Of a DNA stretch of 25,711 bases, positions 2 through 25,487 are shown one piece after another. Under the pieces are notes generated by a model. It was not told the origin of the DNA. It did no database searches and worked only from the letters and a program-made list of their open reading frames with translations. Made by a program: the position numbers and the translations under genes. The stretch is from positions 1 through 25,711 of IMG/VR virus record IMGVR_UViG_3300031711_000070; one strand, given 5' to 3'. Position 1 is the stretch's first letter. Every line of letters starts with the position of its first letter. Source of the DNA: a virus.

Positions 2-1933
2 GCATACAATTTCGTTCAGGTAACTGCCGCCGTCTCCTGGAAGTCCAGGCAGGTGGTTAGCAAGACCCCCCAAACGACCTGGGAAGTTGCGACTACCCGA
101 ACCTCCACCAAGTCCTTGACCTGGAATGACGGTAAGTCCACGTCGAACTCAAAGTCCTTCGTCTGGAATGTACGGATTCCCGCCAGCAGCACCACGTCCA
201 TGACTTGGAATGCCTACCTTCCTGTTTCCCTCTCGGCCGCCTCGTCCTGGGTCACCCGTCAGCAGGTCCGTCCTGTAGCCCTGATAACGTGGAACACCAT
301 GTTCCCCGGGGGGGTTACTGCACCCGTAAGCACCACCTGGGAATCGCTAGGGGCAGGCACAAATACGTCCGACATTCAATGGAATTCAAACAGTTTCCTG
401 ACTGCCGTAGCCAGTACCATAGGCCTTTCCTGGAAGAGTCGGACCCTTGTAACCCTGTCGCTGGTGATGCTATGGCAATCCGAAGTGTCGGGAGGAGCCT
501 CATCGAGCCTGGGGATTACCTGGGAGACGATGCACGGTGTCACAAGTACGGTAGCGACCGCGTGGGTTCAGTATCAGGGGGGGACCCCCTCAGCGTCGGT
601 GAACTGGAATGTCATCGAGTCCCTGAATGCAAGCAAGGCGGTGCTGTGGAATTCGCTACTGCCAGTTACCACGCAGCAAGCATGTGGGTGGCTCGATACG
701 ACCACCGTTCCGAAGACGGCATCAACTTCCTGGAACGTCAGGACGACGCTACCGGCCCTGACGTCCCTGGCCTGGCAGGTTTACGCCATGCGAAGTTCCA
801 TGGTGCCTGTTACGTGGAACTCCCATGCACGGGTTCTGTCGGCGGCCCCATCTACAATCTGGTGGGATACCCTCTATACCAAGCTGAAGACACAAACCGT
901 GGCGTGGGTAAGTGCTGGAGAGCTGGTTTCCCGTACGCAAGCCATAACGTGGGGTACTCGTAAGCGCCCGGCGACGACCCAGGCCCTGTCCTGGAAGAGT
1001 CTCCGCACGGTTGCTAGTCCCGCTGGACTGCGCTGGAATACCCGGGCAGCCCGTAAGGCCACCGAGCAAAGTACCTGGCGGGTGCGGCACACGGCGACCT
1101 CTGGCACCAGTACCTCCTGGCGGGCCCGCAGCGCGGTCGTGACGGACTTGCACACTTCCTGGCATGCATTGCTCGGACGGATTCGCACGGCCTCCCTGAG
1201 TTGGGCTGTGCGCCGCACAGTGCATGTTCCGTTGCCTGTCGCCTGGAATACGGTGACGACTTATCACCCAGTGACCAAGACGGCAGGAATTAACTGGCGG
1301 ACGGACAAGGCACTGCGCATCCGTGTGCCGGTCGCCTGGAACGCTCAGGATCTTCGTGTAACGAAGACCATCGGGGTTACCTGGAATACCCGGCATGTCG
1401 CGAGTCACACGACTGGCATCTCGTGGAAGGTCCTGCTCACGCCGGTAACGGTGACCAAGCCGGTCAAGTGGAACGCACGGACAAACGCGCACGTCTCTCA
1501 TGGCCTGGCCTGGATGGTGCTCCGTAAGGTGAGTTCGCAGAAGACGGTCAGGTGGACGGATAATATCCTTATCACTCAGGTTACCGTGACGCACGCTACT
1601 GCCTGGAAGGACCTTTCTAAGAAGTCCCTGACGCGATCCGTGCGCTGGAATGCAAGGTTTACCCGCGCCGCCCAGAAGTCCCTGGCCTGGAACGTGCTGC
1701 ACTCTGTGACCACGCAGAAGGCAGAGTCCTGGCGGGTGACGCACCGGGTCCCAGTTACCCGCGCCTGCTCCTGGAATGTTCCATTCGGTGCCGCACTGGT
1801 CAGCACGACCAAGTTCGTCAGGTGGAATACGCTCGCGACCGGTACCCACGTTACGACCTCGGCTACAATAGAGTGGACGACGAAGAAGACCATCCCCGGC
1901 GGGATTACGATCGCCGGAGCGGACCGGTGGCAG
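2..1933 (+). repeat. 44-unit Trp-anchored 14-residue (about 42 bp) coding repeat
   Basis: Units begin at Trp codons (tgg), usually tggaa(t/c) for Trp-Asn, recurring every 42 bp with insertions of 1-4 codons. The DNA is diverged between units while the amino acid pattern is kept, so this is an old, selected protein repeat rather than a recent DNA expansion. The last units (from about 1775) are longer, at 17-18 residues, which may mark the transition to the C-terminal end. Confidence 0.85.
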
Positions 1934-1945
1934 GCGGCGCAATGA
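2..1945 (+). CDS. Repetitive Trp-Asn repeat virion protein, probable head/tail fibre or decoration protein (5' end missing)
   Basis: The reading frame is open from base 2 and the repeat is already in register there, so the true start lies upstream and 647 residues are visible. The protein is almost entirely a tandem repeat of about 14 residues, each anchored by a Trp often followed by Asn (for example SLTWN, FVWNV, VAWNT). I count 44 register Trp residues; 31 of 43 spacings are exactly 14 and the rest are 15-18. Between them lie Ser/Thr/Val/Ala-rich beta-prone stretches; there is almost no Cys and no membrane segment. The first half is near-neutral and Ser/Thr-rich, the second rich in Arg, Lys and His. 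Similar WN-type repeats occur in phage structural proteins, and repeats of about 15 residues form trimeric beta-shafts in viral fibres. No enzymatic domain is visible. The stop is followed 1 nt later by the head-tail adaptor ATG, so it belongs to the late structural operon. Role as a fibre or decoration is inferred. Confidence 0.7.
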   Translation, partial: AYNFVQVTAAVSWKSRQVVSKTPQTTWEVATTRTSTKSLTWNDGKSTSNSKSFVWNVRIPASSTTSMTWNAYLPVSLSAASSWVTRQQVRPVALITWNTMFPGGVTAPVSTTWESLGAGTNTSDIQWNSNSFLTAVASTIGLSWKSRTLVTLSLVMLWQSEVSGGASSSLGITWETMHGVTSTVATAWVQYQGGTPSASVNWNVIESLNASKAVLWNSLLPVTTQQACGWLDTTTVPKTASTSWNVRTTLPALTSLAWQVYAMRSSMVPVTWNSHARVLSAAPSTIWWDTLYTKLKTQTVAWVSAGELVSRTQAITWGTRKRPATTQALSWKSLRTVASPAGLRWNTRAARKATEQSTWRVRHTATSGTSTSWRARSAVVTDLHTSWHALLGRIRTASLSWAVRRTVHVPLPVAWNTVTTYHPVTKTAGINWRTDKALRIRVPVAWNAQDLRVTKTIGVTWNTRHVASHTTGISWKVLLTPVTVTKPVKWNARTNAHVSHGLAWMVLRKVSSQKTVRWTDNILITQVTVTHATAWKDLSKKSLTRSVRWNARFTRAAQKSLAWNVLHSVTTQKAESWRVTHRVPVTRACSWNVPFGAALVSTTKFVRWNTLATGTHVTTSATIEWTTKKTIPGGITIAGADRWQAAQ

Positions 1946-1946
1946 C

Positions 1947-2762
1947 ATGCAGTTGACAGACATGCTTTCCCGAATCCGGATGGAGATCGGAGACATGGCG
2001 AAGCCATTCCGATCGATCATGCAGGGCGACGGTACCACCCTGATGACTGACCTGATACAGCCGAACGTCAATGCCCTCGGTTTCGCCATCGACGTCGCGG
2101 ACTCCATCGGAAACGTCACCACCCTGACTCCGACTACTGACTACACCGTGGACGAGGAGAACGGGATCATCCTGTTCGTTCACCCGGTCGCCGCCGGGTC
2201 GACCGCGATCATCTCCGGGACGAGCTGTGGCATGTTCACGGACAATGCGCTTCTCGTTCCCATTCGCGACGCGGTTATCTGGCACTGCCATAACCGTCAG
2301 CTCTCCGAGCGATACCGTGACCGCCACGGATTCATCACCTACCGGGAAACTCCGATAAGCCTGCGGACTATTCCGCCGGAAGAGGAGCTTCCCCTCGTAG
2401 TCCTGGCGACGTATAACACATACTGGATGCTTGCCGACGACATGGCCCTGGACGTCAATGTCCAGACCGCCGAGTCCACCAGCATCGACCGGTCCACCCG
2501 GTATCACCAGGTGATGTCACAGATCGAGGCGCTGGACGCCCGGTACAAGTCCCTGACAAGTCAGCTCAATATCGGCCCCTACCGCATCGCGACGACGAAC
2601 CTCCGGCGCACGAGCCAGACCACCGGCCGCCTTATTCCATTGTTCAAGCCGCGCGAGTTTGATGATCACAGGTATCCGGTAAGGATGCTTCCTCCCATTG
2701 ATCATATGTATGATGACAATTCGGGGGTCCCGTCCCAATTGTTCTATGGCGCGGGGTTGTGA
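1947..2762 (+). CDS. Putative head-to-tail adaptor (gp6-like connector)
   Basis: This 271-residue protein begins with a helical segment (LTDMLSRIRMEIGDMAKPF) and then has a beta-rich middle containing DYTVDEENGIILFVHP and AAGSTAIISGTS. That pattern is common in head-tail adaptor proteins of actinobacteriophages and other phages, followed by a helical C-terminal half. Such proteins sit under the portal ring and form the first layer of the neck. Its place before the other connector genes and the sheath fits. The start at 1947 lies 1 nt after the upstream stop without a strong Shine-Dalgarno; an in-frame ATG at 1962 is an alternative. The family call rests on the internal motif and gene order, so the neck role is likely while the exact layer is less certain. 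Confidence 0.6.
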   Translation: MQLTDMLSRIRMEIGDMAKPFRSIMQGDGTTLMTDLIQPNVNALGFAIDVADSIGNVTTLTPTTDYTVDEENGIILFVHPVAAGSTAIISGTSCGMFTDNALLVPIRDAVIWHCHNRQLSERYRDRHGFITYRETPISLRTIPPEEELPLVVLATYNTYWMLADDMALDVNVQTAESTSIDRSTRYHQVMSQIEALDARYKSLTSQLNIGPYRIATTNLRRTSQTTGRLIPLFKPREFDDHRYPVRMLPPIDHMYDDNSGVPSQLFYGAGL

Positions 2763-2809: not shown

Positions 2810-3556
2810 ATGCACAAGGTAAAGGGATACTGGTGGCGCGGCCAGCCGTCCCGTCCGGTTAACAACTTCGGTGACGGGCTCGCCCCGTATCTGCTCCGCA
2901 GGTTCTCACATCTCAAGGTGGCATGGTCCCCCGTCTCTCAGGCGAATATCGTGACGATAGGCTCCCTGCTTGAGCACATCCCCCCGCTGTGGGACGGGCA
3001 CGTACTCGGCACCGGGAAGCTCTACGAGGACTCGCTGCTCCACCTGCACACTCAGACGGCGACGGTATGGGCCCTGCGCGGCCCGCTGAGCGCCCGTGGC
3101 GTCTCCGGAGATTATGCCCTGGGTGATCCTGGGCTCCTGGCTGACGAACTCGTTACGGTCGATCACAGGGACGTGGGCCTGGGCATCGTCGCGCACCACA
3201 CCGACGACACGCTTGCCCATCGTAAGGAGTTCTTCAGCCCGGACTTCGAGACTCGTATCATCAATGTGGCTGATAATCCGCTTGATGTCGTCCGGGAAAT
3301 AGGCCGCTGCCAGAAGATCGTGACTAGCTCACTGCACGGAATGGTTCTCGCTGACGCGTTCGGCATCCCGCGCCGGTATGAAATTAACCCGAAGGCCACT
3401 AAGTACGAGGGGGGCCTGTTCAAGTTCCAGGACTACAGTGCGTCCATCAATGCCCCGTTCGAGCCGGGTAAACTGATAGAGGCGTCGCGGTTCCACGTCG
3501 AGGACCGCAAGCACGAGATTTACGACGCGTACCGTGACCTTGGGAGGGCACTATGA
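2810..3556 (+). CDS. Polysaccharide pyruvyl transferase family protein
   Basis: This 248-residue protein has the hallmarks of the polysaccharide pyruvyl transferase family: NNFGDGLAPYLL at residues 18-29, VTIGSLLEHI at 48-57, WALRGPLS at 87-94, ALGDPGLLA at 103-111 and VTSSLHGMVLADAFGIPR at 171-188. Family members transfer a pyruvate ketal from phosphoenolpyruvate to a sugar hydroxyl in exopolysaccharides, cell-wall polymers or N-glycans, adding negative charge. The His of SSLHG and the Arg of ALRGP match conserved positions. It is somewhat shorter than many bacterial members but spans the N- to C-terminal motifs, so it looks intact. It follows a 47-nt gap with only a weak ribosome site, and its stop overlaps the next gene's ATG by 4 nt (ATGA), so the two are probably translationally coupled. 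Its presence inside a phage neck module is unusual. The acceptor sugar is unknown; a virion glycan or a host wall glycan are both possible. Confidence 0.9.
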   Translation: MHKVKGYWWRGQPSRPVNNFGDGLAPYLLRRFSHLKVAWSPVSQANIVTIGSLLEHIPPLWDGHVLGTGKLYEDSLLHLHTQTATVWALRGPLSARGVSGDYALGDPGLLADELVTVDHRDVGLGIVAHHTDDTLAHRKEFFSPDFETRIINVADNPLDVVREIGRCQKIVTSSLHGMVLADAFGIPRRYEINPKATKYEGGLFKFQDYSASINAPFEPGKLIEASRFHVEDRKHEIYDAYRDLGRAL

Positions 3557-4335
3557 TGAGCCTGCGGAGGAAGCGCGGACACGGCATTACCCTGCTCATG
3601 CCCTTCCGCGCGAACGAGGGTGACACGAGGTTCCGGGCATTCGACTGGCTCCTCCGGTACTACAAGCATCACCTGCCGAGTGCTGAGATCATTGTCGGCA
3701 CCGACTTCAATACCCCGTTCAGCAAGACCACCGCGTTCAATAACGCGCGGGCTGAGGCACACGGGGACATCCTCGTGCTCATTGACGCGGACTGCTACAT
3801 TGACCCGAAGGTCATCCTGCACTGCGCAAAGGAAATCCGGCGCGAACGACGCAGGGGATACCGTCTATGGTACATTCCGTACCGGAAGTTCTACCGACTT
3901 ACCGAGGTAGCATCGGACCGCGTGCTCGACTCGAATCCCACGCGTCCGCACCGGTTCCCAGTTCCCCCGGACAAGGACGATGTTGAGAATCCGTTCGCGG
4001 CGTCGCACGGGCACTGGTGGGGCGCGCTGATTCAGATCATGCCCGCCGAGGCGTACGATATCGTCGGCGGCTGCGACCCGAGGTTTCTTGGCTGGGGCGG
4101 GGAAGACGTCGCATTCATGCGCGCGGTAGACACCCTGTACTGCAAGCATAAGACCACGCGGAACCAGGTGCTCCACCTCTGGCACCCGATCGTGAAGACC
4201 GAATGGAACCTCCGGATGTGGGAGGGCCAGTCCAGCGCCCGGGACAATGACGCCCTGGCTAACCGGTACTACGCGGCATTCGGTGACCCGAAGCGCATGC
4301 GGAACCTCGTAGGGGAATACCATGTCGAGGATTGA
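3553..4335 (+). CDS. GT-A fold glycosyltransferase with galactosyltransferase-like C-terminal motif
   Basis: This 260-residue protein has a GT-A layout: an N-terminal beta strand (GITLLMPFRA, residues 11-20), ILVLIDADCY at 73-82 with the metal-binding D78-A-D80, and GGCDPRFLGWGGEDVAFMR at 172-190. The last motif closely resembles the Glyco_transf_7C region of beta-4-galactosyltransferase-type and GalNAc-transferase-type enzymes, where the acidic pair contacts the acceptor. HLWHP at 208-212 supplies the usual C-terminal metal-ligand His. No membrane segment or signal peptide is seen, so it should act in the cytoplasm. It overlaps the pyruvyl transferase by 4 nt, with GGGAGGG upstream, and the next gene by 14 nt. 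The likely reaction is transfer of a hexose (galactose or N-acetylhexosamine) from a nucleotide sugar. Donor and acceptor are not predictable in detail. Both key motifs are intact. Confidence 0.85.
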   Translation: MMSLRRKRGHGITLLMPFRANEGDTRFRAFDWLLRYYKHHLPSAEIIVGTDFNTPFSKTTAFNNARAEAHGDILVLIDADCYIDPKVILHCAKEIRRERRRGYRLWYIPYRKFYRLTEVASDRVLDSNPTRPHRFPVPPDKDDVENPFAASHGHWWGALIQIMPAEAYDIVGGCDPRFLGWGGEDVAFMRAVDTLYCKHKTTRNQVLHLWHPIVKTEWNLRMWEGQSSARDNDALANRYYAAFGDPKRMRNLVGEYHVED

Positions 4336-4840
4336 TTACCACCACGGCCGGGCGAACGCGGACTTCGAGACGGTGCAGCTCTCGAATGCCATGCGCGGGT
4401 GGAAGTCGAACTACGGGGACTTCGTGGACTACTACCGGCTGGACCCGGACGCCACGCAGTACGACGACGTGTACGAGGAAGTTCTTTCCGGCGGCCGGAA
4501 GTACAAGCCCGTGATTCGTCTGGGCTGCCTGCACGTCTCCCTGCTACAGGGAGAGAACGACTGGGACGACAAGGGCTTCTACTACAACGACGACATTCGC
4601 GCGCTGGTCCCTTACGAGATTTACACCGGCTCGGGCATGCCATTGGCGGACATGGACACCGGGGCGTACGAGCTTGACCGTATCGTGTACAAGCAGAAGG
4701 TCTTCCGCGTAGTGGAGATAAACGTGCGCGGGCAGATCGTTGAGCACCCGAACATCGTCGCGATCGACGCGACCCAGCTCAAGCCGGACGAGTTGCACGA
4801 AGATCCACTTTTGAAAATATATGAGGATATAGCACCATGA
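4322..4840 (+). CDS. Putative head-closure / neck connector protein
   Basis: The 172-residue product is acidic, with no signal peptide or membrane segment. It starts at an ATG 6 nt after AGGGGA, inside the end of the glycosyltransferase gene (14-nt overlap). The first 50 residues are charged and helical (SNAMRGWKSNYGDFVDYYRL); the rest is beta-rich, with IRLGCLHVSLLQ, YEIYTGSGMPL, VFRVVEINVRGQIVEHPNIV and AIDATQL. An SH3-like or beta-barrel domain of this size between adaptor and tail-terminator genes is typical of head-closure (stopper) proteins. I assign it mainly by position and shape, not by a diagnostic motif, so another neck or minor structural role is possible. If correct, the glycan genes separate two neighbouring layers of the phage neck. 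Confidence 0.5.
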   Translation: MSRIDYHHGRANADFETVQLSNAMRGWKSNYGDFVDYYRLDPDATQYDDVYEEVLSGGRKYKPVIRLGCLHVSLLQGENDWDDKGFYYNDDIRALVPYEIYTGSGMPLADMDTGAYELDRIVYKQKVFRVVEINVRGQIVEHPNIVAIDATQLKPDELHEDPLLKIYEDIAP

Positions 4841-5481
4841 GTCACCGTAATGAGTTCATGAGTTTGGAGATACTAGAAAAGTTCACCAAACCCGAAGGTG
4901 CCTGTAACCTCTGGACAGGACCAGTTAGCAATTGCGGCGATCCCCGATGGTACGCCGTAAACATGCACGAGCACGGTGCCAGTGTTAAGTGTTGGTACGT
5001 GTCAGAAGTCCTCGGCATTGAGCGACCCAAGGGCATGAAGATCTATTCATCTTGCCGAAATAAGATGTGCCTCGCGGAAGATCATATCCGTGAGTTCATG
5101 CGCTATTGTCGTAACAAGCACGAGTACACACCAGAGAATACCGGCCACGACAAAGAGGGCACACGCTACTGCAAAGCCTGTAAGTACGCGTACCAGAAGC
5201 GGCACTACTACGGCCTGGAAGAGGCAACGTTCAACCAGATGCTTATTGATCAGGGCTTCACCTGTAAAATTTGCAAACGTCCTTTTGCGGGACAGCGCCC
5301 TCATCATATCGACCACGACCACGTAACCGGTCGCGTTAGAGGTATCCTGTGCGGGCAGTGCAACACCCTTCTCGGCATGGCGCATGACAACACGGCAATA
5401 CTGGGGGCAGCGATCGGGTACCTGACCAACGCCGAGGACCCGCTGCTCGCGGTTTACGGGGAAGGTAACCTGGCCCCGTGA
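4837..5481 (+). CDS. HNH / endonuclease VII-family nuclease with an extra degenerate N-terminal HNH-like domain
   Basis: The 214-residue protein has three parts. Residues 16-90 resemble the phage HNH domain of CWLWTG...CxNPxHL type (CNLWTG at 23-28, SSCRNKMCLAEDHI at 71-84), but the usual catalytic His before the first Cys is not apparent. Residues 91-115 form a Cys/His zinc-binding knuckle (CRNKHEYTPENT, then YCKACK). Residues 124-196 match the recombination endonuclease VII family: CKIC at 143-146, HHIDHDH at 156-162, CGQC at 172-175, then LLGMAHDN. The C-terminal site looks complete. Endonuclease VII relatives cut branched DNA, but free-standing copies in phages are often homing nucleases. 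The start overlaps the previous stop by 4 nt. The gene is visibly poorer in GC (near 47% in its first 60 bases) than its neighbours, which suggests recent acquisition. Confidence 0.9.
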   Translation: MSHRNEFMSLEILEKFTKPEGACNLWTGPVSNCGDPRWYAVNMHEHGASVKCWYVSEVLGIERPKGMKIYSSCRNKMCLAEDHIREFMRYCRNKHEYTPENTGHDKEGTRYCKACKYAYQKRHYYGLEEATFNQMLIDQGFTCKICKRPFAGQRPHHIDHDHVTGRVRGILCGQCNTLLGMAHDNTAILGAAIGYLTNAEDPLLAVYGEGNLAP

Positions 5482-6891: not shown

Positions 6892-8445
6892 ATGACCACT
6901 TACGGACGTCCCGGTACTTACGTTACCGAGATCCTTCCTCCGCTGACGCCGATTAACTCGACGTTCGGTGGCTCTCTTCCGGTCCTGGTGGCGGCTCACC
7001 CGCGCGGTCCGGTGTCCCCTACGCTCGTTAGCTCGTGGGCCCAGTTCACCCGGTTGTACGGAACGTACGCGGACGCGCCCGGGAGCATTCTCCCGTTCGC
7101 GGTCTCCGAGTTCTTCAGCAACAACGGATCGTCTCTGTACGTCCTGCGCGTTGCGAACTCCGATGCCGTCGCGGCGGTCCTGGACCTACAGGACGTGGAG
7201 AACGACAGCCCCGGTGCCCTTCAGCTTACCGCCGCGAACCCCGGTACCTGGGGTAACCGGCTGGCGGTTCAGGTCACCACGACTGGGACGGCGGGAGCCT
7301 TTACGCTTTCCGTTTACCTGTCGGACAGCACCACGAACGTGCTCTCCCTGGTGGAGACCTTCCCGTCTCTTAGCATGGACCCGTCGAACCAGCGTTACTG
7401 CGTTCCCATTCTGAATGCCCCCGCTTCAGGTTCGCAGTTCATCACGGCCAAGAACCTGCTGAGTTCGTACACCGCCGGGGAATCTGACCTGGTGGCCACC
7501 TCCGGAACTGTGCCCCTGGCATCAGGTGCGAACGGCACGAACACCTCGAACGTGGATACCGCCGTGGTTACCGCCGCGCTCGACAGCATTCCCGACCAGG
7601 TTATGGCCGTGAACCTTCCTGGTGTCTCGGACGTCCCCACCCTGTCCAGCATGATTTCCTGGGCTGAGGCGGCTGGTGACAAGATCATCGTCTGTGACGG
7701 TCCAGCCCCTGACCCGAGCGCCGTGTCCGAGACCGGGTACTCGGCTGTTGTCGTCTCGAATTACATCTCGATGGTGCAGTCAGGCAGCCCGTCTCTTCCC
7801 GACAGCTCGCATGGCGTGATCTACGCACCGTGGCTGCTCACCCGGGACCCGTCCTCCTCGGTCACCGGGGCGACCCGGTACCTGCCCCCGGGCCCGGCGG
7901 TTCTGGCGAAGTACCAGACGACCGATGCCACGGTCGGCCCCTGGAAGACTCCGGCGGGACTTAACACGGTGCTCGGCGGGGTCCTGGCTCTGGAGACCGC
8001 GTTCTCCGGGGCGCAGCTCGACACCCTGAACCTAGCCAAAGTGAATGCCATTAAGTCGCTGCCGAATACCGGCTTCGTGATTTATGGCGGCCACACACTC
8101 GCGACGGGGTACCCGGACACGTTCCTGTCGGTTCGCCGTCAGCTCATGTCAATCGAGCACGATCTTCGGGAGCTATTCCAGTTCGCGATCTTCGAGCCGA
8201 ACGGTCCACTGCTGTGGGCGCAAATCGAAAGCGTCGGTAACAACTACCTGAACCAGCAGTTCCAGGTGCACGCCCTTGGCGGGAATACTCCGACAGAGGC
8301 GTACCACATCGTGTGTGACAGCACGAATAACACGCCAGCCATCGCGCAGTCTGGCCTGTGCACCGTCGACATCGGCGTGGCACTCCTGAGCCCGGCGGAA
8401 TTCCTCCAGCTCAACATCACGCTAACCACCGGCACCTCAGCCTGA
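6892..8445 (+). CDS. Contractile tail sheath protein
   Basis: This 517-residue protein is a typical phage tail sheath. The N-terminus RPGTYVTEILPP is the conserved sheath opening that donates a strand to neighbouring subunits. It is followed by the sheath domain (AHPRGPVSPTLVSSWAQF, residues 33-50, then EFFSNNGSSLYVLRV). Near the C-terminus come the conserved FVIYGGHTL and DTFLSVRRQLMSIEHDL, then a final domain ending in PAEFLQLNITLTTG, which resembles the interlocking C-terminal strand. Six-fold sheath rings surround the tube and contract to drive it through the envelope. The strong ribosome site AAGGAG 8 nt before the ATG fits high expression. The tube gene follows after 15 nt, so they form an operon. 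Confidence 0.95.
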   Translation: MTTYGRPGTYVTEILPPLTPINSTFGGSLPVLVAAHPRGPVSPTLVSSWAQFTRLYGTYADAPGSILPFAVSEFFSNNGSSLYVLRVANSDAVAAVLDLQDVENDSPGALQLTAANPGTWGNRLAVQVTTTGTAGAFTLSVYLSDSTTNVLSLVETFPSLSMDPSNQRYCVPILNAPASGSQFITAKNLLSSYTAGESDLVATSGTVPLASGANGTNTSNVDTAVVTAALDSIPDQVMAVNLPGVSDVPTLSSMISWAEAAGDKIIVCDGPAPDPSAVSETGYSAVVVSNYISMVQSGSPSLPDSSHGVIYAPWLLTRDPSSSVTGATRYLPPGPAVLAKYQTTDATVGPWKTPAGLNTVLGGVLALETAFSGAQLDTLNLAKVNAIKSLPNTGFVIYGGHTLATGYPDTFLSVRRQLMSIEHDLRELFQFAIFEPNGPLLWAQIESVGNNYLNQQFQVHALGGNTPTEAYHIVCDSTNNTPAIAQSGLCTVDIGVALLSPAEFLQLNITLTTGTSA

Positions 8446-8460
8446 TAAGGGAGCTTCGGA

Positions 8461-9012
8461 ATGATTACCCAGAAGTCATCGCTTTCGAGCCCCGCCACCG
8501 ACCCTCTCCGGAACTTCAAGTGGCAGCTCATTTTCCGACCGACCACCGGCCCGGCGGTGCCAATGATGGCAATGACCCTCGGCGGCCTTTCCGGAACCAT
8601 CGACACGATCCCGTACCGTGAGGGCGGGTATAACATCGTCACCCAGAAGATGCCCGGCCAGGCGGACTTCGGTCCCCTGACCATTACCAAGGGCGTCATG
8701 GTCGGCCCGCAATTCCAGATCGACTGGTTCGCCCAGTTGTTCACGGTTCTGCAGGGGACCGGCGGCCAGGCGGCCGGACAGGACTTCCGCATGACGGTTG
8801 ACGTCCTGGTCATCGACCACCCGGTCACCGCCGCATCGGCCCCGGTTAAGGCGGCGTTCACGGTTTACCGCGCGTGGCCGACTGCCCTGGCGTTCGGGGA
8901 CCTTGACGCTGGCGCGAACCAGCTCCTGATTTCCCAGATGACGCTGGCGCACGAGGGCTTCACGCCGTCGATCGCGTCCGCTGTCGGGAACTCTGAGGCC
9001 TCCTACTCCTGA
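8461..9012 (+). CDS. Tail tube protein (T4 gp19-like)
   Basis: The 183-residue protein starts after a GGGAG ribosome site and shows the T4 gp19-like tube pattern: ATDPLRNFKWQLIF at residues 11-24, GGLSGTIDTIPYREGGYN at 41-58, and TQKMPGQADFGPLTITKGVM at 61-80. The first motif is the N-terminal strand, the second the conserved loop. The remainder completes the beta-barrel that assembles as hexameric rings lined up inside the sheath. Size and location directly after the sheath are as expected for contractile-tail phages. The gene is followed by a strong intrinsic terminator, which probably separates the highly expressed sheath/tube genes from the assembly genes. Confidence 0.95.
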   Translation: MITQKSSLSSPATDPLRNFKWQLIFRPTTGPAVPMMAMTLGGLSGTIDTIPYREGGYNIVTQKMPGQADFGPLTITKGVMVGPQFQIDWFAQLFTVLQGTGGQAAGQDFRMTVDVLVIDHPVTAASAPVKAAFTVYRAWPTALAFGDLDAGANQLLISQMTLAHEGFTPSIASAVGNSEASYS

Positions 9013-14897: not shown

Positions 14898-16069
14898 TGT
14901 CCACCGTCCCTGTTGGCCCGGTAGTCTTCTCAGCGACCGTTAACGGATTAGAGTCCCCGAACACGCCGCTGGACTACGAGCTGCACCAGGAATGGGGCAA
15001 GCACGACCTGTTCTTTGTCAGGCTCGTTGTTAAGAAGGGCCTGTCCTACACTCACCTCCTCCAAGCTTGGCCAGATGATTCTGCCGTTGACCTAACCTGG
15101 GGTAGGTACCCGACCTCCGTGCAACACTGGTACGGTTACATAAACCACCATGTGGTGAGCACGAACGACGACGCGTCCGGACAGAATGTTCAGATAACCT
15201 ACGTGTTCATCGGGACAAGCGCGAAGATGAACGGGGACAAGAACCGGTCGTGGAAGGGCTACACCCCGACGTCCATGGCCAGCGTGATTGCCCGCGATCA
15301 TTCCCTTCGTTGTGTTGTGACTTCCACTGACTGGGTTCTCCCCTACGAGGTGCAGGCAAACGAATCCGACTTCCAGTTTCTGAACCGTATCGCAGATAAA
15401 GTCGGCATGCGGTTCTGGGTTTCCGGCGGGACGCTGTACTTCATTGACCCGGTTGCCCTTCTTTCCGGCGCGAGTAACTTCTTCATCCCGCAGTACGTCA
15501 TTAACAAGCAAGCGTACACTCAAGACTCGGCAATGAATTTCGAGTTGCTACAAGGTAACTACATTCCCGGAGCCAATAAGATGGCCCGGACAGTATACGG
15601 AGTCGACACGACCACGGGCCAGGTAATCCAGGCAACGGCGGACGGGGCCACCTCGACGGATCAGATCATTAACATACACCGAAACGTCACCTCGGCCAAG
15701 GAAGCTAAGCAGATAGCTAACGCCTCACAGTCCCTCGGACAGTTCTGGCGTACGGGATCAGTTGAAGTCTTCGGGTACAGTTTGCTATACCCAGGTAAGA
15801 TGGTGAACCTTTCAGGCGCAGCCATGCCAGACAATACCGCTGGGAACTGGATGGTATCAAAGGCCACGCACATCCTGAAGATGTCGTATAACCCGAACCC
15901 GGTGAACGACCAGTACATTACACGGCTGACCATCTTGTCGAATGCAACAGCGTCTATACCCTTTGTGAAGGGTGTGCATAAGATCAGTCCGGAGATTATG
16001 CCATGTACCCTGCGTTCCGGTACGTGGCAGGCACAGATGCTTAACACGGTTATCGAGGGCGTAATCTGA
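14897..16069 (+). CDS. Baseplate hub protein (gpD / T4 gp27-like)
   Basis: The 390-residue product fits the late control gene D / gp27 hub family. It has an N-terminal barrel ([20 protein letters not shown], residues 27-46), a WYGYINHH and [11 protein letters not shown] strand pair, then the hallmark helical segment [12 protein letters not shown] and [20 protein letters not shown] followed by [13 protein letters not shown], and a second barrel. These proteins form the trimeric hub that adapts the six-fold tube to the three-fold spike. It lies between the LysM protein and the spike, as in many myophages. The stop and next ATG overlap by one base (TGATG). Confidence 0.85.
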
Positions 16070-16674
16070 TGACTAACTTGGTTCCACAATGGTTCGGTAC
16101 GTATACCGCGACGGTGGCTAGGTCCCGCGCGGATAACTACCTTGAGCTTTACATTCCGCAGGTACTGGGGACCGCCCTGTCGAACTGGGCTGTTCCCGTT
16201 GGATCATGGACGGGGACACCGCCCCTTCCGGGTACCGTGGTATACGTTACGTTTACCGGTGGGGACATTAACCAGCCCGTATGGATGCCAAAGTCCGGCC
16301 TTCTCCAAGGTGCGTACCCAGGTGACGCGACCGAAGTTCTTCACGGTGACGGCTCCTGGGGCGCTTCGGTTGGACCGAAGGGCGCTACTGGTGCGCAGGG
16401 TCCTGCCGGGGCCGCAGGGCCTCCTGGAGCCACGGGACCGCAAGGGAACACCGGACCACAAGGACCGGCTGGCCCTACAGGTACAACGGGCGCAACGGGC
16501 GCTCCAGGGGCTACTGGCGCAACAGGTCCCACCGGACCAACGGGGCCCACGGGGGCGACCGGCGCGACGGGACCGCAGGGTCCGGCTGGCGGGGCTGGTA
16601 CGACCAACATTGACGGCGGGGACCCTTCTAGCACGTTTCTGCCTGGCGGTATTCTCGATGGGGGAACTCCCTGA
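16069..16674 (+). CDS. Baseplate spike: OB-fold gpV/gp5-like domain with collagen-like shaft
   Basis: The 201-residue protein starts with an OB-fold of gpV/gp5 type (residues about 8-80): [19 protein letters not shown], then [20 protein letters not shown] and WMPKSGLL. Residues 84-101 are a short linker ([15 protein letters not shown]). Residues 102-176 are 25 uninterrupted Gly-X-Y triplets ([20 protein letters not shown] and so on), a bacterial-type collagen repeat. The end ([18 protein letters not shown]) is a Gly/Asp-rich tip. Normal contractile-tail spikes carry a beta-helix needle after the OB-fold; here a collagen triple helix takes its place, or this is a spike adaptor for another tip. 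The trimeric OB-fold would seed the triple helix. Stop and next ATG overlap. Confidence 0.8.
16372..16596 (+). repeat. Collagen-like Gly-X-Y coding repeat (25 triplets)
   Basis: A 225-bp stretch encodes 25 perfect Gly-X-Y triplets, with X and Y mainly Pro, Ala, Thr and Gln; GAT, GPT and GPQ dominate. The 9-bp DNA periodicity is imperfect because synonymous codons vary, which argues for protein-level selection. Pro is mostly in X, as in bacterial collagens lacking hydroxyproline. Confidence 0.95.
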
Positions 16675-19580
16675 TGTCTCAGCAAATTCAGATTCGGCGT
16701 GGTACGGCAGCGGCTTGGACGAGTGCTAATCCAGTCCTCGCTCAGGGTGAGTTCGGGTTCGAGTATGACACCACGAAGGTAAAGCTCGGTGACGGAACAA
16801 CTCACTGGACCTCCCTCGCGTACTTCACCGCCGGGCTGACTTACACTGATGTCGGCGCGGACGCGGCGGGAGCGGCTGCCGCCGTCCTGGCTACGTCCCT
16901 GCAGAAGGCCAGTAATCTTTCCGACGTAGCGAGTGCTAGCACAGCCAGGACGAACCTCGGCCTTGGGTCCGCAGCCGTAGCAGCGATTGACGCCACATCT
17001 GGGGACATCACTGTATCGGCAGCCGGAGATTCCCAGGCGGCCGGGGCGACCGGAAAAGTCGCGGACGCCGGGCATAAGCACGGACGGGAAGCCTTTGGCT
17101 CAGTGACCGCGCAGACTTCATACGGCTCCTCCAGCGGGAACGGGGCCGCAGCCACCCTAGCGCGCTCCGATCACACGCACGGTACCCCGGCCTTGAACTC
17201 CACCGCCGGGACTATCACGTGGCCCGGTACGCAAGCCGCTGGATCGACCGGCCAGGCGGCGGACGCTGGACACGTTCACCCGGCCGAACTCGGCTGGTAC
17301 AACGTAAAGCATTACGGCGCGGTCGGTAACGGCTCGACGGATGACACCACCGCAGTTCAGGCGGCGATTAATGCCACGGCAGCTACGGGTGGCGTCGTGT
17401 ACTTCCCACGCGGGGTTTACAAGATCACCGCTGGACTGACGTACAACAGCAGCGGTGTGTACGCGGTGGCATTCCGAGGAGACAATGCCTCCGGTGGGAC
17501 GGCAGACGGGTCGGTAATCGCCTTCACCCCCGGGTCGACTCCGTACGTGGCGGTGAAGATCACGAACGCCTACATGTCGTACATGGACCACCTTACAATT
17601 TGCGGCGCGTTCGGGTCTTCGATGTCGCAGACGGGCGGCTGGACTGGCCTGGAAGTGGATAACTCCGTATTCCGTATGGACAACTGCCAGATCGGTTCCT
17701 TCGCAATCAGCACCGGAGCTAGTGCACCGACGACTGGCTTCGCCTGTAATGTCGACGCTTACATCACGAATTCCACAATCTGCGGACAGCAGTTCGGTCT
17801 TGTGCAGATGGGTAACTCTCCCGGACTGGTGACTGAGAACACCCTGTTCATGGCTGCCGCTGGTAACGGGTCCGCATGCGTGAAGATGGATGCGAACGGC
17901 ATAAACAACAGCTCCGGATCACTCCTGATGTCGAACTCTTTCACGGGGGGAGGAGACTACGGATTCCAGATGACGTCGCAGACGCCCGGCGTGGTTTACC
18001 CGGTATTCGCGACGTTCAATAATGTCGGCCTGAATAACTGCGCGGTCGCCATGATGGACTTTGTGTACGGCGGGCAGATCTTTGGCAATGGCATCTGGAC
18101 CACGAACAACGGCGGGGCGGCCGGAACGCTAACCCATGGTCTACATTTCCACTCCACCTTCCAGGGTGGGGTCTACCTGGTCGACACGAACATCGGTGCC
18201 TTTTCTGGCCATGGTCTCTGGATTGAGGGGGGGTTCGGGTACACGATTACCGGTCTGAACATCGGTGACTGCGGGTACAGCACTACCACGAATACCTATG
18301 ACGATATCCATATCACATCAGGAGTAAGCCGGGTTACCCTCTCGAACATAAACTTCGACACGGACCCGTGGACTGGTCTGAATGCCAGCCCGGCCCGATC
18401 GGGGCTGTATATCGAGAACGGCGTAACGAACTATCAGGTCAGCAACTGCACCGCAGTGGCGTCGGGATATGCCACGGCGACGTGCATCGACCTGAATCCG
18501 AATGCCAGCCACTACCGGAACAATATCAACATACCGAACTCGGGAACAGTATCCTATTCCAGCATTCCCCATCTTATCGGGACTGCCGCAGTGAGCACCG
18601 GGGCCACCTCCGGCGCGGTCGGAACGACGAGCGAAGCTGTGCCAGTCGGCCAGGCGGTGAACGTCATGTTCATTGCCTCAGCCTCGACCACATTTACGGT
18701 TAGTGATTCGCACAGCAATACGTACACGCAGATCTCGGCTCAGCAGCTAGGTTCCAGTGGCAAGTACATGTACATGTTCGCGTCCCCGGTTACCACGGCG
18801 ATTCCGGCCTCCACTGCAATTACAGCCACGTCCAGCACGTCCACCACCTGGGAATCGGCAATCTACACCGTGCCACTGGGGACACAGTGCTATCTCGCCG
18901 GGGCGGCAGGAGGTACGGGTACCTCAGTCTCCGTTACACTCTCGAACCTTCGTCCGAACTCTGTGCTGGTATCGCACTTCGGGAATGCCGGAAACGTAAA
19001 CATCACGACCTGGGGCCCTAACTGGACTAACTGGTCCTCAACCTTTGGTGTAAATAGCCTGGTCGACAACTTTCAGTACATCCAGCCGAAGGACCTCACC
19101 AGCACAACCGTTACCGCCGCATTTGCCGGGAGCCAGAGCTGGTCCGCTGTGGTCGTGGGCTTCGCCGTCCCGGTGCCGGACACGGTACAGACTGCCGCTA
19201 TCGATACTGTTGCCGGGGATATCGCGGCCCTTGGAACGCAGGCGGCCGGAGCCACCGGAAAGCTAGCAGACGCGGGTCACGTGCACCCAATCGGAACTGT
19301 TTCGTCGCAGACCACGACGTACACCGTCCTAGCTACCGACCGAACTGTCCTGGCCGACGCCACAAGCAGTGCGTTTACCGTTACCCTTCCGACTGCGGTC
19401 GGCTGCACCGGGCGTATCTACACCGTCATCAAGAAGGATAGTGCAGCGCATACGGTTACCGTGGGCACCACAAGCAGCCAGACAATCAACGGAAGCACGA
19501 CCTACACCGGACTGACCGCGCAGTACAACCGGGTCACTGTTCAGAGTGACGGATCAAACTGGTGGATTCTTAATACGTAA
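16674..19580 (+). CDS. Tail fibre / tailspike with pectate-lyase-like beta-helix
   Basis: This 968-residue fibre has a baseplate-binding N-terminus (IQIRRGTAAAWTSANPVLAQ, then GEFGFEYDTTKVKLGDGTTHW) of the type shared by many phage fibres. Residues 105-205 hold three 33-residue units with HxH motifs (His134/136, 167/169, 200/202). At 208 the segment YNVKHYGAVGNGSTDDTTAV opens a pectate-lyase-3 type right-handed beta-helix, continuing with VVYFPRGVYKIT and repeated N-x-x rungs to about residue 610. A beta-sandwich-like region follows. A fourth HxH unit (His869/871) precedes a C-terminal domain with YTVLATDRTVLADATSSAFT and NWWILNT, common at fibre ends. The beta-helix may degrade or bind surface polysaccharide; catalytic residues cannot be placed by eye. 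Confidence 0.85.
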   Translation: MSQQIQIRRGTAAAWTSANPVLAQGEFGFEYDTTKVKLGDGTTHWTSLAYFTAGLTYTDVGADAAGAAAAVLATSLQKASNLSDVASASTARTNLGLGSAAVAAIDATSGDITVSAAGDSQAAGATGKVADAGHKHGREAFGSVTAQTSYGSSSGNGAAATLARSDHTHGTPALNSTAGTITWPGTQAAGSTGQAADAGHVHPAELGWYNVKHYGAVGNGSTDDTTAVQAAINATAATGGVVYFPRGVYKITAGLTYNSSGVYAVAFRGDNASGGTADGSVIAFTPGSTPYVAVKITNAYMSYMDHLTICGAFGSSMSQTGGWTGLEVDNSVFRMDNCQIGSFAISTGASAPTTGFACNVDAYITNSTICGQQFGLVQMGNSPGLVTENTLFMAAAGNGSACVKMDANGINNSSGSLLMSNSFTGGGDYGFQMTSQTPGVVYPVFATFNNVGLNNCAVAMMDFVYGGQIFGNGIWTTNNGGAAGTLTHGLHFHSTFQGGVYLVDTNIGAFSGHGLWIEGGFGYTITGLNIGDCGYSTTTNTYDDIHITSGVSRVTLSNINFDTDPWTGLNASPARSGLYIENGVTNYQVSNCTAVASGYATATCIDLNPNASHYRNNINIPNSGTVSYSSIPHLIGTAAVSTGATSGAVGTTSEAVPVGQAVNVMFIASASTTFTVSDSHSNTYTQISAQQLGSSGKYMYMFASPVTTAIPASTAITATSSTSTTWESAIYTVPLGTQCYLAGAAGGTGTSVSVTLSNLRPNSVLVSHFGNAGNVNITTWGPNWTNWSSTFGVNSLVDNFQYIQPKDLTSTTVTAAFAGSQSWSAVVVGFAVPVPDTVQTAAIDTVAGDIAALGTQAAGATGKLADAGHVHPIGTVSSQTTTYTVLATDRTVLADATSSAFTVTLPTAVGCTGRIYTVIKKDSAAHTVTVGTTSSQTINGSTTYTGLTAQYNRVTVQSDGSNWWILNT
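16986..17288 (+). repeat. Three 33-residue HxH repeat units in the fibre N-terminal region
   Basis: HxH motifs fall at residues 134, 167 and 200, exactly 33 apart. Units 1 and 3 end in ADAGH(K/V)H and share AAG(A/S)TG; unit 2 ends RSDHTHG. A further copy of GTQAAGATGKLADAGHVHP lies near the C-terminus (codons for His869 and His871 at 19278-19286). Confidence 0.85.
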
Positions 19581-22610: not shown

Positions 22611-25487
22611 GTGTCGGTTTACGGGATATCTTCCTACGATCAGTCCATTTACGGGCTGGATCGTTATCCTGCCTATTCCGTCGAGCCGTTTACCGCGCGG
22701 TCGGTTAACTATGGCACGCTTCAAGTCACCTGGACGAAGCCATCAGGTTCCATTTTCCGGTACCGGCTGCTCGCTAACCGGTACGGATACCCGGTAAATG
22801 AGACTGACGGAACGGTGCTGTTCGATTCCACCACGTACCCCGGTTCCTCCTACGTGGATACCTCGGTCATCGCCGGGACGTACCACTACTACGGGTTCTA
22901 CGTTCTTGTCGACGTCACGAATAACATCTGGATTCGCAGCGGAGTCTCCGGTTGCCTGGCCGTTAAGGATTACGGTTCGAGCAATGACATGTGGAACCGT
23001 CTGCCCGAGCACTTCCGAACTCTGCCGGAAACCGGTGGCGAGCTAACCGGGGACGCGGCTGGTAACCCGTACCTCAAGCAGTTCGTGAACGTCCTGGGGT
23101 ACAGCGCCGACTACCTGCGCACGCAGTACGGAATGCTGGCCGAGCACTATAACGACCCGATGGTCATCCCGATTGACGACCTCTGGAATCTAGCGGCCGA
23201 GGTCGGACTTCATTTCTCCCCTGAGCTGCCCGCCTACACGATCCGAAAGGCAGTCGCAAACCAGGCCCATGTCTGTCGTGAAGGGGGGACGACCCAGGGT
23301 ATCGGGAATGAGATTATCATCCGCACCGGATGGGCAGCCGATATCACGACCGGCCCAAACCTTATGCTTGAGGACGACCAGTCGACATTCATCCACCCGA
23401 TCTTCACCCCGTATTCCCCTTACCGGTACTACTACATCGGGGATTACGTCTGGACCGGAGCACCGGTCCTGTCCCGGCAGTGGCCCGGCCTTGGTTTCTG
23501 GTACCAGTGCATTAGTCCTTGCCAGGGAATCGACCCCACGGGGGTTGTCACCCAGAGCGCGAACTGGAAAGTCGTAAAGGACGCGGACGATACCACCCTG
23601 CATACCCTGTTGAACTCCGGCACGGGCTTTCCCAGTACCTGGGAAGCCGTGGATATTAGCGCGACGTCTGGCTTGCCAACTGCCGGGTCACTAATCCAGG
23701 GCCTAGGGGTAAAAAACCTCCCGGGTACAGGTAACGCCTGGAATAGCCTGCGGTTGAAGAACACGGCGGCCAGTTCAAAGACTCTCATCATTCGTAGTGC
23801 AGCCCGGCAGCCAAGCCAAGTTACCGGAGCCCCGTGGGCAGTCGATCCGCAGAGCGCCGTACAGGATGCGGTGCCCGTTCCGTACGTTCGGGACTCACAG
23901 CAGTGGAGCCCCGCTATTCGGTACGGCACCGGAGACATAGTGCTCTGCCAGGGGCAGCCGTTCACGGCGCTGCGTGCCTCAACCGGTATCCGTCCGCCCG
24001 CGAACAATATAGCAACACCGGAGTGGGCCCCCCTGTCTGAGTCGCGGCGTATCAGGATTGCGGCGAGCGGGTACATCAGTGACAACATGACCGGTACAGG
24101 CAATCCGGTAAAGGTAAACCCATGCATGGAATGGTATGACGCCACCGGAAACTTCATCACCCGGGTCACCGCACGGAACACGTCAACAACCGGTAACCCG
24201 AGTAAACCAGATAACTTTGTGTTTGACTCCTTTACCGGGTCAAGCCGAGTCTTCAATGTACAGGGTAACAATACGGCTCCCATTGGCCCCTGGCAGGCCA
24301 CGTACTGGCAGAACCAGACTCTAACTGGGACGCCGGTCGGAAGCCAGTCAGTTCCGAATGTGAACTTCAGCCTCGACGGGACGACCTCCCTGTTCCCGAG
24401 CCTGGCCAACACCGGATGGTCCGCTAGCTGGGTAACGCGCTTCCTCCCACCGTCGACCGGCAACTATACCTTCTCCCTGAAGGGACTCGGCGGGGGGACG
24501 CGCCTGCTCATTAACGGCATCCCCGTGATCAATGCATGGGCGGGCACCCCGACCAGCCTGACGTCTGCCACCATCCAGCTTCCAGGAGGAAGCCCGGTGA
24601 CAGTCGAAGTCGACTATGTGGCCCCGGCCTACACCCAGGGCAGCGGGAGCACGCCGAACCTTATTGCCATTCCGAACCCCGTATCGACAGGTTCAACGAA
24701 CTATACCTTCCCGGCGCTCCCTGTGATTCCCGGCATCGAGTACGGTTTCGGGTTTACCGCTCCGGGGTTCATCGGGGCAACCATCACCTGGTACGGACCG
24801 AACAGTAACCAGCCGATAGGAACTACCCAGTTCGCCCGGCAGGCGGGACAGCCCGGTATCCGGTCGACCGCGACCGTCCCAGCCGGTGCCACCTCGGCAT
24901 CCGTCACAATCGGTGCGGACGCGTCTCCTATTAATGTGTCGGCCTACTTTCTCATGGCCACTGGTGCCCCCGTCGCATCGGGGCTTACTGTGACGAGCCA
25001 GGTTACGTTTACCCCGACGACTAGCCTGCTGAATACTAATACCCTGACCGGACGGACCACTGATGATAACCTATTGGCCTGGCAGACCCCAGTTGGAAAC
25101 TTCTCCGTGGGTAACGGTAACTGCTGGCCCCTGATCCCAGGACAACGATCAATTGGACTGGTTCCCGGACCGGCGAACACGAAGCTCGGCGTGACTTTCC
25201 GAACCGGGCCGCAGTCCGGGCAGACCCAGGGTATGGTCTTCCGGTACACCGACGATAACAACTACTGGCGGTGCAGCCGCACAGACCTTAGGAAGAAGGT
25301 CGCCGGGACATGGGCACTCGTCGCTACGCACTCAACTGCCTTCGCTGATAACGACAGGATGATCATCGTCCTGAACGGGCCCGTAATCCAGGTATTCCGG
25401 AACGCCGGGGGAACTCCGGTAAGCTCAGTCTCGGATACATTCAATTCGAGTGCCACGAAGCATGGTGTAATTGTGGAGCAGACGTGA
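22611..25487 (+). CDS. Large tail protein: gpI-like core with multiple carbohydrate-binding-like domains
   Basis: The 958-residue protein is modular. Residues 20-118 look like an FnIII domain. Residues 125-245 resemble tail protein I (gpI): MWNRLPEHFRTLP, YLKQFVNVLGYSADYLRTQY, IPIDDLWNLAAEVGL and AYTIRKAVANQAHVCREGGT. Two segments (about 275-324 and 430-475) have the aromatic W...Y..GD.V...G spacing of CBM5/12-type chitin-binding modules, e.g. YGTGDIVLCQGQPFTALRA. Residues about 590-685 match a PA14 domain (WVTRFLPPSTGNYTFSLKG, TRLLINGIPVI). Residues about 817-958 look like a concanavalin/LamG-like domain (YTDDNNYWRC). The GTG start follows GAAGG. gpI normally attaches the fibres; here it seems to carry glycan-binding modules itself. 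Confidence 0.75.
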   Translation: MSVYGISSYDQSIYGLDRYPAYSVEPFTARSVNYGTLQVTWTKPSGSIFRYRLLANRYGYPVNETDGTVLFDSTTYPGSSYVDTSVIAGTYHYYGFYVLVDVTNNIWIRSGVSGCLAVKDYGSSNDMWNRLPEHFRTLPETGGELTGDAAGNPYLKQFVNVLGYSADYLRTQYGMLAEHYNDPMVIPIDDLWNLAAEVGLHFSPELPAYTIRKAVANQAHVCREGGTTQGIGNEIIIRTGWAADITTGPNLMLEDDQSTFIHPIFTPYSPYRYYYIGDYVWTGAPVLSRQWPGLGFWYQCISPCQGIDPTGVVTQSANWKVVKDADDTTLHTLLNSGTGFPSTWEAVDISATSGLPTAGSLIQGLGVKNLPGTGNAWNSLRLKNTAASSKTLIIRSAARQPSQVTGAPWAVDPQSAVQDAVPVPYVRDSQQWSPAIRYGTGDIVLCQGQPFTALRASTGIRPPANNIATPEWAPLSESRRIRIAASGYISDNMTGTGNPVKVNPCMEWYDATGNFITRVTARNTSTTGNPSKPDNFVFDSFTGSSRVFNVQGNNTAPIGPWQATYWQNQTLTGTPVGSQSVPNVNFSLDGTTSLFPSLANTGWSASWVTRFLPPSTGNYTFSLKGLGGGTRLLINGIPVINAWAGTPTSLTSATIQLPGGSPVTVEVDYVAPAYTQGSGSTPNLIAIPNPVSTGSTNYTFPALPVIPGIEYGFGFTAPGFIGATITWYGPNSNQPIGTTQFARQAGQPGIRSTATVPAGATSASVTIGADASPINVSAYFLMATGAPVASGLTVTSQVTFTPTTSLLNTNTLTGRTTDDNLLAWQTPVGNFSVGNGNCWPLIPGQRSIGLVPGPANTKLGVTFRTGPQSGQTQGMVFRYTDDNNYWRCSRTDLRKKVAGTWALVATHSTAFADNDRMIIVLNGPVIQVFRNAGGTPVSSVSDTFNSSATKHGVIVEQT

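Follow-up and report, generated by a model that had tools for sequence, protein, structure and literature searches.

The window, by which we mean the whole 25,711-base IMG/VR fragment analysed here, opens inside a gene for a tryptophan repeat protein (Table 1). Because the window is a fragment, this gene is cut at its 5' end. The full gene was obtained from an overlapping contig (L004), which shares 6,159 identical bp with the window; it starts 61 codons upstream of the window frame and encodes 708 residues with 48 Trp. The complete protein begins MTTYYFPGMAAPIGG and enters the repeats within about 30 residues; no N-terminal anchor domain was found in it, and the window part had no match in Pfam. 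Its C-terminal tail (...ATIEWTTKKTIPGGITIAGADRWQAAQ) is conserved in L006, one of the two contigs (L005/L006) that carry its closest relative. Directly upstream of the array gene in L004 is a distinct gene whose 245-aa product is similar to a tail fibre protein (phrog_38058), and a small gene of the family phrog_13135, hereafter the partner, accompanies the array on the same strand. The 271-aa protein encoded downstream keeps its place in the Streptomyces phages BRock, LuckySocke, GiJojo and pSt2308 (38-39% identity); no array gene was found at that place in these four phages, though the neighbourhood is kept. Judging from its position, the 271-aa product is probably a head-to-tail connector. 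Since the window encodes a tail sheath and a tail tube, the virion is that of a contractile-tailed (myo-) phage.

Table 1. Coordinates of the array gene, its neighbours and related features in the window and in other records.
Feature	Record	Position	Strand	Remarks
Partner gene (phrog_13135)	L004	3440-3994	same as array	about 1 kb upstream of the left edge of the window, outside it
Array gene, complete	L004	4820-6946		
Array gene, 3' part (647 of 708 codons)	Window	2..1945	+	open at the left edge, start codon outside the window; stop TGA at 1943-1945
Antisense ORF opposite the array	Window	749-2122	-	457 aa; probably a by-product of repetitive codons
Next gene, undescribed protein	Window	1947..2762	+	271 aa; begins one base past the array stop
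Polysaccharide pyruvyl transferase (PF04230) and glycosyltransferase gene	Window	2810-4335		between connector-region genes of the structural cluster
Endonuclease VII-type gene	Window	4837-5481		PF02945, E 4e-20; within the structural cluster
Tail sheath and tail tube genes	Window	6892..9012	+	context
Small tail fibre-like protein	Window	16069-16674		collagen-like triple-helix stretch (PF01391)
Probable tailspike	Window	16674-19580		Mtd_N domain, then pectate-lyase-like domain
PA14-domain protein	Window	22611-25487		E 4e-13; 958 aa; near the end of the baseplate genes
Array variant	L385	4195-5967		Trp replaced by Tyr/Phe or lost (A-N); beside a phrog_13135 partner
Array variant	L401	7586-8941		as in L385
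Partner variant	L107	1050-1763	-	insertion of about 60 residues in one loop
CRISPR spacers annotated inside a gp15 array	Vibrio phage 1.081.O (MG592456.1)	near 238110-238571		may be artefacts of the 42-base period

The 14-residue Trp repeat is real. The window part of the protein holds 45 Trp in 647 residues, and the 44 spacings between them are 14 residues in 31 cases, 17 in five (the commonest departure), 15 in four, 16 in two and 18 in one, with one adjacent WW. When the WW is counted once, this reproduces the count of a sequence-only reading of the same DNA, which had described at least 44 Trp-anchored units with 31 of 43 spacings at exactly 14. Trp pairs at a lag of 14 numbered 31, whereas 10,000 shuffles of the residues averaged 3.0 and never went above 11. 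The unit reads (V)-(S/T)-x-(T/S)-x-x-(V/I/L/T)-x-W-(N)-(V/T/S)-x-x-x, and the reading as a regular, beta-prone protein repeat is upheld. The label "Trp-Asn" holds in part: Asn is the commonest residue after Trp, but it directly follows only 18 of the 45. Units in the window share on average 22% of residues and 39% of nucleotides in pairwise comparison.

Comparison with the closest relative (L005/L006) shows how the array changes. There the array gene encodes 1080 aa with 67 Trp over its open frame, and the product carries an extra Gly-rich N-terminal domain (PF21722, E 1.4e-7) that is absent from the L004 protein. Aligned over 707 columns, the two arrays are 39% identical, and Trp is kept in 48 of the 52 columns that hold it, compared with 231 of 655 (35%) for the other residues; dN/dS between them is about 0.44. 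Together with the divergence among the units, this upholds the earlier claim that the units have drifted apart in DNA while selection on the protein keeps the pattern. Both contigs of the relative encode the same 271-aa type of downstream protein (85% identity), and the partner is 92% identical between L004 and L006. With flanks at 85-92% and the array at 39%, the array is therefore the variable part of a conserved neighbourhood, its Trp pattern strictly kept. The array protein is thus held to its pattern, yet fast-evolving.

A search with tblastn using the window protein gave only weak matches, in Vibrio phages, and these led to gp15, the tail sheath stabilizer and completion protein at the neck of KVP40-like Vibrio phages, whose C-terminal half, behind the gp15 domain, is an array of tandem 14-residue Trp units (hereafter a W14 array) like that of the window protein. 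KVP40 gp15 has 11 exact 14-residue spacings and F86 gp15 has 16. In T4, gp15 forms a hexamer at the upper end of the tail, adjoining the neck. As in L004, a phrog_13135-family gene adjoins gp15 in the KVP40-like phages. The full L004 protein differs in having no gp15 (sheath terminator) domain at its N-terminus, only about 25 residues before the repeats; what it has in common with the KVP40-like gp15 is the array alone. PHROG 6079, labelled "tail protein", matches the window protein (E 6.4e-17) and covers the repeat in part, probably through KVP40-like gp15. Novelty, as the sequence-only reading had proposed it, must therefore be qualified by this family; on the other side, no Pfam family covers the repeat, and PDB sequences gave no match to the array.

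We then scanned IMG/VR with two DNA patterns, one of seven TGG codons at 42-base intervals and the other of four TGGAAY units. The scans returned many further arrays, and dozens of uncultured phages carry one. The consensus unit over 61 loci reads V-(S/T/G)-x-(T/S)-x-x-(T/L)-x-W-(N/D)-V-(R/L)-A-x, and its hydrophobic residues fall at positions -8, -2, 0 and +2, alternating as in a beta-strand. Array length ranges from 7 to 67 Trp. The N-terminal domains differ among relatives: Gly-rich in L006 (and, by eye, in L248), laminin-G in L411 (PF13385, E 1e-15), and in others, judged by eye only, ConA-like or beta-helix. Many matches of the seven-Trp pattern were rejected as low-complexity WLWL frames, and others as members of another 14-residue family, SADWDSTY, in which the heptad-like spacing (W0, Y4, V7) points to a coiled coil; this SADWDSTYTSV-type Trp repeat is also common in viral contigs (L021, L256, L290, L313 and others). 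Most matches from a search of genome contigs were unrelated repeats, and one locus there (L182) was a real array and partner pair.

The period and composition of the repeat had been likened to the triple beta-spiral of viral fibre shafts. The array indeed has a period near the 15 residues of an adenovirus-type shaft, a beta-prone composition and variable length, but the comparison fails because the W14 unit has no conserved Gly/Pro turn residue: no unit position exceeds 25% Gly plus Pro in the window or 19% in the family, and the unit has instead a single near-invariant Trp at period 14. An AF2 model of eight window units (38 aligned rows) reached only pLDDT 56 and pTM 0.46; each unit had about one strand, and helix was absent. 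The array matches no solved fibre by sequence, and a Foldseek search with this low-confidence model found no significant fold match. A triple beta-spiral shaft is hence quite improbable. We also set aside the YadA-type left-handed beta-roll, another 14-residue repeat: the YadA consensus has a conserved Gly at fixed repeat positions, and the W14 unit has no conserved Gly position. A coiled-coil whisker of the fibritin (wac) type was set aside as well, given the beta alternation of hydrophobic positions and the predicted strands without helix; T4 fibritin is a coiled coil, and KVP40 has a separate wac gene.

The chief new finding is that a conserved partner accompanies the W14 arrays. The partner family, phrog_13135 (182 aa, function not annotated), comprises beta-rich proteins of about 180 aa encoded beside arrays. 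The L004 partner matches the family with E 2e-13 and is homologous to the product of the gene adjoining KVP40 gp15 (AAQ64422, 182 aa); phmmer searches with either protein recovered further family members at about 25 other loci, which had first been picked up through their Trp spacing. Of the 32 array loci listed before the reverse search, two of them KVP40 and F86, the partner was present in the available DNA of 21, including loci picked up by Trp spacing alone, always on the same strand (21/21) and within 30 bases in nine. The linkage also holds in reverse. One scan with a profile of the partner alone found 277 relatives, and in the best 80 of these an array, taken as at least three exact 14-residue spacings, was present in 47, on the same strand in all 47 and downstream in 46; none of the 2,287 other ORFs of at least 120 aa at these 80 loci held one. 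Some of the 33 loci lacking an array by this measure have F/Y-anchored repeats, short arrays or cut flanks, and others have none; F/Y-anchored versions lie beside the partner in L385, L374, L376 and L371. In all, the partner belongs to phrog_13135 in L004, L006 and about 60 further array loci, and among 50,697 phage records it was confined to 50 KVP40-like Vibrio records. None of the protein-family and structure libraries searched describes array and partner as a pair, and nothing on the repeat or on the partner turned up in literature searches.

The partner, modelled by AF2 with high confidence (pLDDT 91, pTM 0.89) and made mostly of strands and loops, is predicted to be a beta-sandwich from this model and its fold matches, which were weak in the PDB (a CBM3a, best, at E 0.024; an archaeal filament at E 0.030) and clearer for one uncharacterised siphovirus protein (E 3.4e-8). 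A confident small beta protein so tightly linked to the array could mean that the array has no fold of its own and that each W strand completes one partner beta-sandwich by strand addition, giving an appendage that is a string of partner subunits with its length set by repeat number. The low AF2 confidence of the array alone, with strands predicted nonetheless, the range of repeat number and the covariation of partner and unit (profile distances correlate over 61 loci; Mantel r 0.54, p 1e-4) would all fit. Self-assembling homotrimeric rods, however, would likewise give low monomer confidence, and the correlation reflects joint inheritance of neighbouring genes, which arises without contact between the two proteins. 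We regard such a string as possible but doubtful. Slightly more doubtful still is the broader proposal that array and partner form a new type of virion fibre, with each Trp strand docking one partner, and constitute a transferable cassette used on neck, head or tail tip and shared by phages of unrelated capsids and tails.

The array recurs among the virion genes of many unrelated, mostly uncultured phages, usually with its partner. Neighbours of the pair are genes for portal, head maturation protease, major head protein, head morphogenesis, scaffold or terminase (seen at L346, L352, L394, L385, L434, L411, L404, L428, L403 and L006). A place between capsid-side and neck genes, proposed from the window, is supported: in L006 the locus lies between the major capsid gene (phrog_1357) and connector and tail genes. 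Head-gene neighbours and the gp15 fusion point to the head/neck side of the particle as the probable site of the pair, and the earlier suggestion of a head fibre or neck whisker survives as a probable head or neck appendage.

A location elsewhere has to be weighed against this. Stenotrophomonas phage S1 and related siphophages encode a 1201-aa protein whose partner-like ends lie on either side of a long insertion; two genes further on, a tail-region protein has a short, diverged W14 array near its N-terminus. In S1 the ends of gp19 (tail protein b) weakly resemble the two partner halves, split by several hundred residues, and gp21 (tail protein) bears the array; these diverged versions sit at the tail tip, not the head, and the likeness is remote. 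Because the partner similarity in S1-related contigs is weak (E 1e-6 to 3e-4), we treat the group as a lead. It would suit a distal-tail or injection-related repeat, such as a hub extension or a tape-measure-like ruler, as would weak tblastn matches to Enterococcus tape measure proteins. Yet genes for portal, capsid and scaffold surround the main family, KVP40 has its array fused to gp15, and the baseplate and tail genes of the window lie apart from it, so that a distal-tail role appears improbable. Least probable of all, and very unlikely, is that the protein stays out of the virion, serving for example as an assembly factor or as a decoy set free at lysis, and lies in a structural operon by chance. 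In favour of this, our literature search found no proteomics papers on array or partner proteins; against it stand the fusion to a virion structural protein in KVP40-like phages and the types of N-terminal domain seen.

The best reading, and one we hold to be somewhat more likely than not, is that the array protein forms the stalk in a virion appendage of two components, located on the particle's head/neck side, a place similar to that of the T4 fibritin whisker. Each 14-residue unit would give one beta-strand, with Val at -8 and the residues at -2, Trp 0 and +2 facing inward and the Trp as anchor. Tandem units would build an elongated rod of variable length whose outward residues are free to vary. 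In many relatives the rod would hold off the capsid an exchangeable N-terminal domain (Gly-rich, laminin-G/ConA-like or, by eye, beta-helix) that probably touches the host surface or other surfaces. The small beta-rich partner, made alongside the array, would bind it and be needed to mount, cap or coat the rod.

A beta rod of variable length, anchored by a single-residue rule, would also interest protein designers. The module is widespread and has no Pfam family, solved relative or described function; it can be tested in cultured phages, since KVP40-like Vibrio phages carry the partner. A two-gene virion module of this kind would explain "hypothetical" proteins in the head gene clusters of many uncultured phages.
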